From contig JAFGWL010000059.1 of assembly GCA_016937175.1 (NCBI GenBank), positions 1-15,255 of the forward strand: DNA of 15,255 nt, given 5' to 3'. The position numbers and the translations under genes are program-made. Origin of the DNA: Candidatus Mcinerneyibacteriota bacterium. GTDB lineage: Bacteria > Macinerneyibacteriota > Macinerneyibacteria > Macinerneyibacteriales > DSCS01. The notes under the pieces were generated by a model, which worked only from the letters and a program-made list of their open reading frames with translations, was not told the origin of the DNA and did no database searches. This document shows positions 6,301 to 14,881 of the stretch, piece by piece. Every line of letters starts with the position of its first letter. The first letter of the stretch is position 1.

Positions 6301-7553
6301 GCCTTTTCCAGGATCTTCCGGGCTCCCTTGAGGGTATCTACCATATTTTCTTCGATCCTGTTGAGCAGGAAGGGTTTGAAGAGTTCGATGGCCATCTGTT
6401 TGGGGATCCCGCACTGGTCCAGGCGCAGCTTGGGGTCCACGACGATGACTGAGCGGCCAGAATAATCCACGCGTTTCCCCAGCAGGTTCTGGCGGAAACG
6501 GCCGTTTTTCCCTTTGAGCATATCCGACAGGGATTTCAGGGGTCGGTTTCCTGTCCCTGTCACAGGACGGTTACGGCGCCCGTTATCAAAGAGGGCATCC
6601 ACAGCTTCCTGGAGCATCCTCTTTTCATTTTTCAAAATGATCTCAGGCGCATTGAGGTCGATGAGTTTTTTCAGCCTGTTGTTCCTGTGGATGACGCGCC
6701 GGTAGAGGTCGTTCAGGTCTGAAGTGGCAAACTTGCCGCCGTCCAGGGGAACCAAAGGCCTCAGGTCAGCCGGGGTCACCGGCAGGACTTCAAGGATCAT
6801 CCATTCAGGGCGGATATCCGATATCTTAAGCTGATTGAGCAGGCGGAGACGCTTAATGAGTTTTTTCCGGTTCTGAACAGATTTAGTCGTCTCGATCTCG
6901 CTCTGGATCCGGAAGAATTCCAGCTCCACATCGATCTTTTCCAGAGCTTTCCGCAAAGCGCCGGCTCCCATCTCCGCTACGAAACTCTCTTCTCCGTAGC
7001 GCTCCACCAACTCATCGTATTCCTCTTCGTCCAGGATCCGCTTCTTCAGATTGGGCTTAAGAGAGCCGTCTTCCAGAGATGTCTCATATTCCACCAGTTC
7101 GGGTATATCCCCGGGATCCACGACAAAATATTTGTCATAATAGATGATCGAATCCACCTCTTTGCTTTTCAGGTCAAGAAGCAGGGCCATCCTGTTGGGC
7201 AGATTCTTGAAAAACCAGATATGCGCCACGGGAGTCACAAGCTCGATATGTCCCATCCGTTCACGACGGACACGGGACTCCGTCACTTCCACACCGCAAC
7301 GGTCGCAGATGATCCCCTTGTTCTTTTTCTTCTTATATTTTCCGCAGGCGCACTCATAATCCTTGACAGGGCCGAATATCCGTTCACAGAAGAGGCCGTC
7401 TTTTTCCGGCTTCAGTGTCCTGTAATTGATGGTCTCCGGCTCTTTCACTTCCCCGTAGGACCAGGAACGGATCTCATCAGGTGAAGCCAGGGAGATTTTG
7501 ATAGAATCAAAATCATTCGTCGATTTCGGAAAAACCTTTTTCGGAGATGTCAA
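3363..7553 (-). CDS. rpoC: DNA-directed RNA polymerase subunit beta'
   Basis: Beta' forms the clamp and half of the active site of RNA polymerase. The 1396-residue product is close to the 1407 of E. coli. The N-terminal zinc ribbon uses C68, C70, C83 and C86. The catalytic NADFDGDQM has its Mg-binding aspartates at 474, 476 and 478. The second zinc site is C828, C903, C910 and C913. The bridge-helix/trigger-loop region includes [16 protein letters not shown] from about 939. A long insert follows before [15 protein letters not shown], matching the Gram-negative SI3 position. The start is TTG at 7553-7551: it is six bases after AAGGAGG, it gives the family-like N-terminus ([27 protein letters not shown]), and no in-frame ATG occurs until about residue 99. 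It is 11 bases after rpoB. Confidence 0.98.
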
Positions 7554-7559
7554 AGCTAT

Positions 7560-7566
7560 CCTCCTT
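7560..7566 (-). promoter_or_regulatory. Ribosome binding site that fixes the TTG start of rpoC
   Basis: AAGGAGG on the minus strand overlaps the rpoB TAA stop (7567-7565) and lies six bases before the rpoC TTG. The overlap suggests that ribosomes finishing rpoB restart on rpoC, which would help keep beta and beta' in balance (inference). Confidence 0.85.
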
Positions 7567-10500
7567 ATTTATCATTCTTAAAAAATTCAATATTCAGGCA
7601 AAGTCCCTTGAGCTCGTTGACAAGGACGTTGAACGACTCGGGGATCCCGGGCTCAGAGGGATTCTCTCCGCGGATGATGGACTCATACATCTTTGTCCTT
7701 CCGTTGACGTCATCGGACTTCACCGTGAGCATCTCCCTCAGGAGATGAGCTGCGCCATAAGCTTCCAGCGCCCACACCTCCATCTCGCCGAACCTCTGTC
7801 CGCCGAACTGGGCTTTGCCTCCCAGAGGCTGCTGAGAGACCAGGGAATAGGGGCCTGTGGCCCGGGCATGCAGCTTATCATCCACAAGATGGTGAAGCTT
7901 CATGACGTAGATCACACCTACGGTGACTTTCTCATCGAAGGGTTCTCCGGTATAACCGTCATACAGGGTTGTTTTCCCCGATTCGGGAAGCCCTGCTTTC
8001 TTAAGCCACTCTTTGATCTCAGATTCGGGCGCTCCGTCAAAGACCGGAGTAGCGATCTTTACTCCCATTTTCCGGGCGGCCCATCCGAGATGTGTCTCCA
8101 GGATCTGCCCCACATTCATTCGCGAAGGCACACCCAGGGGGTTCAGGACGATATCCACGGGAGTCCCGTCTTCCAGATAGGGCATATCCTCTTCCGGGAG
8201 GATGATGGAGACGACACCCTTGTTCCCGTGACGGCCGGCCATCTTGTCTCCCACGGAGACCACGCGGCGGTTAGCCACATAGACCTTGACAGACTTGATG
8301 ACTCCCGGGGGAAGGTCATCACCGCGGAGAAGCTTCTTCCACTCCTCATCGCGCCATTTGATGATCTCACGCCTTTTCTCTTCTACGATATCCGCCAGCT
8401 TCTGGAGACGCTGCAGGTCCTCCACTGGAAGTGCCTTCTTCTCCACCAGCACTTTTTCAATCGCCTTGACGGAGCAGTGCTCTTCTGTGAGCGCAGTCCC
8501 CTTGGGGCCGATGGGCTTGACCTCTTTGGAGATAGCCTTGCCCGGCAGTATCTTTTTCAGGACTTCTATTCTTCTTTTGTTGATGATCTCCAGTTTCAGA
8601 GCCTGTTCCCGTTCGATCTTATCAATATCATCCTTGCGCTCCCGGCGGATCACCGCCTCCATATCTTCTGTCTGTTTCCGCGTAAAGACTTTGACATCGA
8701 TCACTTTCCCTTTAACCCCCGGAGGGACACGGAGGGAAGCGTCTTTCACATCTTCAGCTATCTTTCCGAAGATGGCGCGCAGGAGCTTCTCTTCAGGGGT
8801 AAGTTCTGTCTTCCCTTTGGGAGTGACCTTGCCCACGAGGATATCACCGGGTTTTACATAGGTGCCGATCTTGATGATACCGCTCTCGTCCAGGTCTTTG
8901 ATCATCTCGTCCATGACCTGGGGTATATCGCGTGTGATCTCCTCTTTCCCGAGTTTAGTCTCACGGGCATCTATCTGCAGCTCTTCCACGTGAATAGAGT
9001 CGAAGCTGTTGTTCTTGACCAGGCGCTCGCTGAGGACGATGGCATCCTCGAAATTGTATCCTCGCCAGGGGAGGAACGCCACAAGCAGATTCTGTCCCAG
9101 AGCCAGTTCTCCGCCCTGGGTCCCGAACCCTTCTGTGAGAGGATCCCCCTTTTTTATCTTCTGGCCCACTTGCACGATGGGCCTGGTATTGATACAGGTA
9201 TCCTTATTGGACCGCCGGAATTTTTCAAGATAGTAGATGTCGCGGCCCATGTCATGGCCGAAATCCTTGTCCAGGTTGTCAGGATCCAGCTTGTCCTGGT
9301 CCGTCTTGATGACGATGAGGTTTGCTGTGACCTTCTCCACCACGCCGGGGCGACGGGCGATCTGCACATATCCTGAATCCTGTGCGATCTTGGACTCGAT
9401 CCCTGTTCCGATGACGGGAGATGCGGGATTGATGAGCGGCACACCCTGACGCTGCATGTTGGAGCCCATGAGGGCCCGGTTGGCGTCATCATGTTCCAAA
9501 AACGGAATGAGAGCCGCCGAGACAGAGATAAGCTGTTTCGGGGAGACATCCATGTAATCCACGCGTTTGGGCTCCACCAGGATGAACTCTCCGGACTGCC
9601 GTGCCAGGATACGGTCGGCAGCAAAATGCCCGTTCTCTTTGAGAACGGCATTGGCCTGGGCGATGACCTTCCCCTCTTCCTGATCCGCAGTCAGATAGAC
9701 CACATCATCAGTGACCTTCCCCTTGACGACTTTTCTGTAAGGTGTCCGGAGAAACCCGAAACGGTCGATGGTGGCAAAAGAAGCCAGTGATGTGATAAGG
9801 CCGATGTTCTGTCCTTCAGGTGTCTCGATAGGGCAGATCCGGCCGTAATGGGTATAGTGGACATCACGGGCTTCGAACCCGGCCCGTTCACGGGAGAGTC
9901 CCCCCGGGCCCAGCGCCGAAAGCCTTCTCTTATTGGTGATCTCCGACAGAGGATTGGTCTGATCCATAAACTGGGAGAGCTGATGGCTCCCGAAGAACTC
10001 GTTGAGGACAGCCGTCACCGGCCGTGAGTTCACCAGATTCTGGGGGTTGATCTTATCCGCCTCGCTGATGTTCATCCGCTCCTGGATCACCCGCTTCATC
10101 CTGTAGAAACCCGTATAAAGGTGATTCATCAGCAATTCACCCACGGCGCGCACACGGCGATTGCCCAGGTGATCGATATCCCCGGCTTCGACCATATTGA
10201 AACGAAGTTTCAAAAGATAGGCGATACTGCCGATGATATCTTCATTGGTGAGAGTGTTTTCACCGGATTCTGCTTCATTCCCCAGGACGACGTTCAGTTT
10301 GTAACGTCCCACTTCTCCCAGATTATAGGTCCTGGGGTTAAAGAAGAGGTCATAGATGAGAGACTCCGCCAGTTCGATGGTCGCCGGAGAGCCGGGACGC
10401 AAAATCCCGTAGACACGAGCCAGCGCCTTTTCCATGGTGTCGAAATTGTCTTTTTCCAGAGAGGCAGCGATGATATCCTGGCTTCCTTCTTTGACTACAT

Positions 10501-12165: not shown

Positions 12166-12693
12166 TTATTCGCTTTTCTTGTCCTGAATAGCGCTTAAGA
12201 CACCCACAAGATTCCTGATATTACCCGCCAGGACATTCACAAACCCGGTGACCGGGCCCTGCATGGTCCTGAGCAGCATAGCAAGAAGCTCGTCCCTTGA
12301 CGGCAGTTCAGAAAGGGCATTGATCCGTTCCTGATCCACCACCATACCTTCAACCATACCTGCCTTCACGCTAAATTTGTTGTTCGCTTTGGCAAATTTA
12401 ACGAGGACTTTCGCGGGTGCGACAGGATCATCATAGCTTAAAGCAAAGGCGGTCGGGCCCTTGAGGCTTTCTTCCAGTCCCTTGATCTCAAGGGCCTCAA
12501 GCGCTCTGTACGCCATTGTGTTTTTATAGACTTTATACTCGACATTGTTTGCTCTCAACTCTCGACGTAACGCTGTGATCTCTTCCACGTTCAAACCCAT
12601 ATAATCGGTAAGGATCACCGATTTGGCCTTGGACACTTTATCCTTGATCTCGTCGACGACTTGAACTTTTTCAGGTCTAACTTTATGAGCCAT
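12166..12693 (-). CDS. rplJ: Large ribosomal subunit protein L10
   Basis: L10 anchors L7/L12 dimers to 23S rRNA next to L11 and is the autoregulator of this gene pair in well-studied bacteria. The 175-residue product begins MAHKVRPEKVQVVDEIKDKV. It contains the conserved SVILTDYMGLNVEEITALRR and YKVYKNTMAYRAL segments and ends in a hydrophobic C-terminal helix (ELLAMLLRTMQGPVTGFVNV to LSAIQ) of the kind that binds L7/L12. The ATG at 12693-12691 has AAGGAGG seven bases upstream. A longer frame starting at TTG 12765 runs back through the leader hairpins and lacks family similarity, so it was rejected. It follows an L10-type leader RNA and precedes rplL. Confidence 0.97.
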   Translation of the reverse strand: MAHKVRPEKVQVVDEIKDKVSKAKSVILTDYMGLNVEEITALRRELRANNVEYKVYKNTMAYRALEALEIKGLEESLKGPTAFALSYDDPVAPAKVLVKFAKANNKFSVKAGMVEGMVVDQERINALSELPSRDELLAMLLRTMQGPVTGFVNVLAGNIRNLVGVLSAIQDKKSE

Positions 12694-12719
12694 GTTTTTC
12701 CCTCCTTTCTCGTGATCTA

Positions 12720-12763
12720 TCGGGCTCTTCCTCATACGGAAGAAAGCCCGACAAAGGTCGGGC
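12720..12763 (-). terminator. Leader hairpin and overlapping alternative hairpin upstream of rplJ (attenuator candidate)
   Basis: GCCCGACCTTTGTCGGGC (12763-12746) forms a seven-pair stem with a four-base loop followed by TTTCTT, resembling an intrinsic terminator. Its 3' arm can instead pair downstream: bases 12751-12745 with 12726-12720 (seven pairs), then 12742-12738 with 12731-12727 (five pairs) with a two-base bulge. The two folds share the arm TCGGGC and cannot coexist. The downstream fold ends 19 bases before the rplJ ribosome binding site. Which fold terminates or protects transcription is inference. Confidence 0.65.
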
Positions 12764-12835
12764 AATGATTTTAGTCATTGGACCTCTGTCTCGGTAGGCA
12801 TTTTTAAGCCTGCGCACCCACTGTCTACGACAGGA
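12756..12835 (-). promoter_or_regulatory. Ribosomal protein L10 leader (autoregulatory mRNA element)
   Basis: The transcript upstream of rplJ contains GTAGACAGTGGGTGC, then GGCTTAA, then CCTACCGAGACAGAGG. These match, from memory, the conserved blocks of the bacterial L10 leader family, which binds L10 or the L10-L7/L12 complex. Just 3' of it, GGTC (12784-12781) and CAATGA (12780-12775) can pair with TCATTG (12768-12763) and GACC (12759-12756) around a three-base bulge. That third hairpin would occupy the 5' arm of the terminator-like stem. In Bacillus subtilis the rplJL leader is reported to act by transcription attenuation. The same logic is plausible here but unproven. Confidence 0.8.
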
Positions 12836-12840
12836 TATCT

Positions 12841-14807: not shown

Positions 14808-14881
14808 CAGGCCAAGAGGGATTCGAACCCCCAACCACCTAATTTGGAGTCAGGTGCTCTACCAATTAGAGCTATTGGCCT
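14808..14881 (-). tRNA. trnW: tRNA-Trp (anticodon CCA)
   Basis: The minus strand folds into a full cloverleaf. The acceptor stem is AGGCCAA with TTGGCCT (7 pairs). The D arm is GCTC/GAGC with GG in the loop. The anticodon stem is CCTGA/TTAGG around CTCCAAA, giving CCA for tryptophan. The variable loop has five bases and the T arm GGGGG/CCCTC holds TTCGAAT. The discriminator base is G and the CCA tail is not encoded. It sits between rpmG and secE within the protein operon, so it must be cut out of the mRNA. Only seven bases separate its 5' end from a long hairpin. Confidence 0.97.

Follow-up and report, generated by a model that had tools for sequence, protein, structure and literature searches.

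Autogenous control of L10 operons, known and probable

A close known counterpart of the leader examined here is that of Bacillus subtilis rplJL, in which overlapping anti-antiterminator, antiterminator and terminator structures have been established by footprinting, in vitro transcription, oligonucleotide competition and mutants (Yakhnin et al. 2015, PMC4538822, our reference for B. subtilis throughout). In E. coli, by contrast, L10(L12)4 represses translation by way of the rplJL leader (PMC4538822). Here we describe the rplJ leader in a stretch of 15,255 nucleotides from a Candidatus Mcinerneyibacteriota bacterium (the window). This leader is very likely an L10(L12)4-dependent transcription attenuator within the rplK-rplA-rplJ-rplL-rpoB-rpoC cluster, and it is followed by a further hairpin, C, that re-pairs one arm of the terminator.

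Gene setting and the L10-binding element

The minus strand of the window carries a ribosomal protein and RNA polymerase cluster, with nusG, rplK, rplA, rplJ, rplL, rpoB, rpoC, rpsL, rpsG and fusA; L1, L10 and L7/L12 were confirmed with Pfam, and the remaining gene names come from reading the translations. A tRNA with the apparent anticodon CCA (Trp) lies upstream of nusG (14808-14881, minus strand). On the plus strand, open frames of 456 and 609 amino acids (616-1986 and 7547-9376) run antisense to fusA and rpoB and are probably artefacts of codon usage.

About 150 bases separate the rplA stop codon (12844-12842) from the start of rplJ at 12693 (Table 1). Because the stop codon lies 5 nt from P1, the closing helix of the L10 element, there is no room for an intergenic promoter, and the sole promoter-like match near the leader sits within it, at chance level. 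The tight spacing between rplA and the leader was considered as a special feature and set aside, several other leaders showing the same. Over 12844-12829, a ribosome that ends translation at the rplA stop might sit on the 5' strand of P1, which would favour read-through.

Table 1. Coordinates of the rplJ leader and its flanking genes in the window
Feature	Position	Strand	Value or basis
rplA (L1) stop codon	12842..12844	-	5 nt ahead of first P1 base
P1 5' strand (AUCCUGUC), 5' strand of anti-antiterminator	12829..12836	-	MFE of truncated leader
Alternative 5' hairpin CUGUC-GUA-GACAG	12821..12833	-	takes P1 5' strand when A forms; ensemble sampling
L10(L12)4 recognition core: kink-turn strands AGACAG and CCGA, CUUAA loop	12791..12828	-	RF00557 cmscan
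P1 3' strand (GACAGAGGU), common to A 5' arm	12782..12790	-	MFE of truncated leader
A, antiterminator: 12790-12781/12759-12750 and 12780-12775/12768-12763, 3-nt bulge	12750..12790	-	-20.1 kcal/mol
B, intrinsic terminator stem-loop	12746..12763	-	-13.4 kcal/mol
U-tract UUUCUUCC of terminator B	12738..12745	-	5 U in 8; weak
C, post-terminator hairpin re-pairing B 3' arm	12720..12751	-	-19.3 kcal/mol
Shine-Dalgarno GGAGGG of rplJ	12700..12705	-	similarly accessible in A+C and P1+C states (ensemble sampling)
rplJ, ribosomal protein L10	12166..12693	-	PF00466 E 2.2e-31
rplL, ribosomal protein L7/L12	11781..12158	-	PF00542 and PF16320

The initial annotation saw here an L10-binding element with a full terminator/antiterminator switch behind it, and in this it was right. 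In a search of 351 bases with cmscan, the Rfam L10_leader family (RF00557) aligns over its full model to 12848-12731, with 38.4 bits and an E value of 6.5e-5; the score is below the gathering score of 44, and the match is significant though under that curated cut-off. Searched genome-wide, the leader is the single match in the genome (E 8.3e-5). The core motifs AGACAG, CUUAA and CCGAG are intact and lie directly upstream of rplJ.

The initial annotation overlooked a fourth competing helix. This helix, P1, lies upstream of the others and pairs 12836-12829 with 12790-12782; its 3' strand falls inside the 5' arm of the antiterminator (12790-12781). When A forms, a small hairpin at 12833-12821 can replace P1 because GACAG is present twice in the L10 element. 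Across L10 leaders, P1 is canonical in 0.786 of cells compared with 0.618 when partners are shuffled (maximum 0.670 in 1000), figures that are approximate, given that the anchors were found in 88 of 108 loci, that the 3' anchor is misplaced in the window and its congener, and that the set also contains related species.

The predicted antiterminator/terminator switch

The three hairpins of the initial annotation were A, B and C, and every pair it listed is canonical: GGUC/GACC plus CAAUGA/UCAUUG in A; GCCCGAC/GUCGGGC in B, followed by UUUCUUCC; and UCGGGCU/AGCCCGA plus CUUCC/GGAAG in C. Hairpin A is longer than was given there. With GACAGAGGUC at 12790-12781 pairing with GACCUUUGUC at 12759-12750, it becomes a helix of 16 bp (12790-12775/12768-12750), and its energy goes from -9.0 kcal/mol as first written to -20.1 kcal/mol. 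In this extended form A occupies the loop of B and parts of both B arms. None of 2000 shuffles of the A segment folds as well, and for the whole leader z is -3.7, with 0 of 200 shuffles folding as well.

Ensemble folding shows how P1 sets the choice between these structures. In growing transcripts P1 makes up about 0.4 of the ensemble until the 3' arm of A emerges. At transcript ends 12746-12738, A is present at 0.99-1.0 (about 100%) and B at no more than 0.01 (about 1%) when P1 is free, whereas B is present at 1.0 (about 100%) when P1 is clamped; these values are for the RNA alone at thermodynamic equilibrium and 37 C, leaving aside RNA polymerase, NusA and true kinetics. Computation shows these pairings, how they exclude one another and how the ensemble switches; the mutual exclusion of A and B proposed in the initial annotation stands. 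The A and P1 states are about 4 kcal/mol apart, a gap that plausibly could be paid by a bound protein.

It is through the overlap of P1 with A that L10 would act on the switch. Both L10 binding and the direction of control (L10 favours termination) are inferred from B. subtilis, and on this analogy the rplJ operon is probably shut off by its own protein through premature termination. With L10(L12)4 occupied on rRNA, P1 would be lost from the nascent leader and antiterminator A would form; B would then be blocked, and RNA polymerase would read into rplJL-rpoBC. Free L10(L12)4, on the other hand, would bind the kink-turn element and hold P1, depriving A of its 5' arm. Without that arm A would give way to B, and transcription would end around 12745-12738.

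Control of translation rather than transcription, as at E. coli rplJL, is a highly improbable reading of this element, given the terminator with a U-tract that sits directly behind it and the similar accessibility of the rplJ Shine-Dalgarno sequence in the A+C and P1+C states.

Hairpin C: structure and timing

Hairpin C takes up the 3' arm of B. With the terminator arm kept fixed, shuffling of the tail gave 21 sequences in 3000 that folded as well; when the terminator arm was also required to be paired, 12 of 3000 were as good. C is therefore modestly significant: it is more than a typical chance hairpin, yet not overwhelmingly so alone.

The initial annotation proposed that C is a second antiterminator, preventing B by capturing its 3' arm. 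It is true that bases 12751-12746 are common to the two hairpins, that C is about 6 kcal/mol more stable, and that B drops to 0 in the full-length RNA at equilibrium. The order of synthesis, however, speaks against this role. The 3' arm of C (12731-12720) begins 7 bases and ends 18 bases beyond the U-tract (12745-12738) where B must act; transcription must go further still before this arm leaves the polymerase, by which time B has been passed, and C therefore cannot act as an antiterminator of B. In ensemble sampling C is 0 at transcript ends 12742-12730, with A or B settled earlier, and it replaces B only after 12720 has been transcribed, whether P1 is free or clamped. An antiterminator role for C is thus extremely unlikely and was rejected on transcription order. 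C would instead form solely in read-through RNA, after the decision, ousting B from its 3' arm.

C and A are compatible, both being present in the minimum-energy fold of the full leader, and in the P1 state C has an advantage of about 5 kcal/mol over B. The coexistence of C and A would allow C to insulate the read-through mRNA from L10 by hardening the A-to-P1 switch in the full-length message. The computed cost of going from A to P1 is, however, 3.9 kcal/mol when C is intact and 4.3 kcal/mol when it is blocked. It is not raised by C; this candidate was rejected on that ground, and we regard it as highly improbable. C also does not clearly alter Shine-Dalgarno accessibility in ensemble sampling.

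Conservation of the leader structures

The comparison within the phylum covers three genomes, among which the only near neighbour of the window is one congener (genome G001, leader L055). In the third genome neither L10 nor L1 was matched, which probably reflects an assembly gap. In the congener the pairs of P1, A and B are identical to those of the window. In C, the terminator arm is unchanged and the downstream part differs by six gapless differences, or by two indels plus two substitutions, yet C still pairs, with its register shifted. This shifted pairing is weak evidence for C. After random mutation of the window, pairing as good as that of the congener is kept at a frequency of 0.011 with substitutions only and of 0.15-0.25 under an indel model, and the congener's own tail test gives a p value of 0.117 (dinucleotide shuffles).

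The leader also holds an in-frame ATG at 12735-12733, which has no clear Shine-Dalgarno sequence. Starting there would lengthen L10 by 14 residues, but the congener has CTG at this place, so the codon is probably not used as a start. A conserved leader peptide was rejected on the loss of this start codon.

More widely, a terminator-like hairpin lies between the L10 element and rplJ in all 30 of the other leaders examined across bacteria, by a loose criterion. By automatic criteria, antiterminator-like pairing between the P1 3' strand and the terminator is present in 21 leaders of a set of 32 that contains the window and its congener; the other 11 do not show this overlap.

Outside the genus of the window and one family of another phylum (f117), C-like pairing occurs at about chance level among the 74 leaders tested, and the leaders with p below 0.1 beyond these two groups match chance expectation, so that no general C is seen in L10 leaders. 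Within f117, a C-like hairpin was found in about ten genera (g304, g342, g343, g344, g346, g353, g354, g355, g356 and g358), where the terminator 5' arm recurs downstream as a near-copy, as in CGGAAGCC with GGCAUCCG. The pairing runs on into the terminator loop, changes on one side being matched on the other: GUGACGG with CCGAUCAC in g343, GUUCGG with CCGAAU in g344 and g355, and GGUCAU with AUGAC in leader L106. When each leader was paired with its own tail and with tails from other genera, the own tail ranked 0 or 1 of 23-30 in g343, g353, g355 and two g358 leaders and 4-7 in g342, g344 and g356, and was weak in g304, g346 and g354. The hairpin was not found in g348, g347 and g349 leaders. 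Of the leaders tested from the remaining families of that phylum, nearly all are likewise without it; three (L137, L141 and L153) were flagged, L153 through a misassigned terminator. (It should be noted that species within a genus are not independent and that single-leader tail p values in f117 are mostly 0.01-0.1.) The strength of the f117 case, as judged from the predicted pairings, is its recurrence and its matched changes.

The f117 leaders in which a conserved near-copy hairpin stands behind the L10-leader terminator, with matching changes between genera, are L063, L106, L108-L110, L112-L125 and L127 (centre G353).

The suggestion that two-sided competition for the terminator is specific to this lineage therefore holds in part: most of the L10 leaders tested do not have such competition, but some ten f117 genera do. 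That C in the window genus is inert, a product of chance with no link to the conserved hairpin of f117, is a serious alternative, though less likely than not. It would fit a hairpin that was singled out after the fact with a shuffle probability of only about 0.007, together with its survival in 15-25% of indel simulations and the congener's tail test at about 0.12; the substitution-only retention frequency and the conservation in f117 of this very arrangement, with the terminator 5' arm nearly duplicated downstream, count against it. C is, on the sequence comparisons, a predicted recurrent accessory element found in the window genus and in family f117.

Possible roles of hairpin C

Any specific role for C is doubtful at present. 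The most likely of these, put forward as speculation, is that C would compact the part of the leader that runs from the terminator to the rplJ ribosome-binding site. Another candidate, which we hold to be rather unlikely, is that C shields the untranslated leader from Rho, A and C together leaving little unpaired RNA from the L10 site to the rplJ ribosome-binding site. In this reading C would stand in for the leader-peptide translation thought to block Rho in B. subtilis, where Rho-dependent termination is thought to lie downstream of the terminator (PMC4538822). Rho is encoded in the genome of the window and in the C-bearing relatives checked, and the potential leader-peptide start at 12735-12733 is lost in the congener, both of which would fit a Rho shield; Rho is nearly universal, however, so its presence weighs little.

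Viewed across both groups, C might tentatively be taken as a recurrent variant of the L10 attenuator, in which a downstream near-copy of the terminator 5' arm captures the 3' arm after read-through, so that full-length messages are freed of the terminator hairpin; the element would then act in the read-through mRNA (Rho exclusion, stability or translation). Literature searches of open-licence papers found no description of such a post-terminator competitor. If C is functional, attenuators can also include a dedicated element whose action follows the termination decision, and the recurrence in f117 provides about ten genera in which C can be tested.

Comparison with known L10 leaders

The leader of the window resembles B. 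subtilis rplJL in its ordered chain of overlaps, with P1, A and B corresponding to anti-antiterminator, antiterminator and terminator upstream of rplJ, and it shares the same L10 motif and the same expected direction of control. Its anti-antiterminator holds the L10 site and shares bases with the antiterminator, its antiterminator and intrinsic terminator are mutually exclusive, and its terminator is followed by a U-rich tract, though a weak one. It differs in that A overlaps the terminator loop and both arms, compared with 5 shared bases in B. subtilis; in that it starts directly after the rplA stop codon, without an evident promoter of its own; and in that it lacks a conserved leader peptide and has the extra hairpin C. 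The translated leader peptide, whose Shine-Dalgarno sequence lies in the 3' part of the terminator, is a Bacillus addition rather than a part of the basic attenuator, and no such peptide was found in the window.

With RF00557 the leader shares the kink-turn strands, the CUUAA loop and the terminator, which align over the full model; the consensus structure line of the family, however, marks no P1, antiterminator or C. Like the f117 leaders, it has a C-like hairpin in which the terminator 3' arm pairs anew with a near-copy of the 5' arm further downstream. The f117 leaders differ in sequence and phylum, in a C helix that reaches into the terminator loop and, in at least some of them, in a TTGACA/TATAAT promoter just upstream. 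On these comparisons, L10 autoregulation of the B. subtilis kind very likely reaches a deep and barely sampled lineage, which the standard Rfam cut-off misses: the core switch is a known mechanism in a new lineage, and C is a small variant of it.
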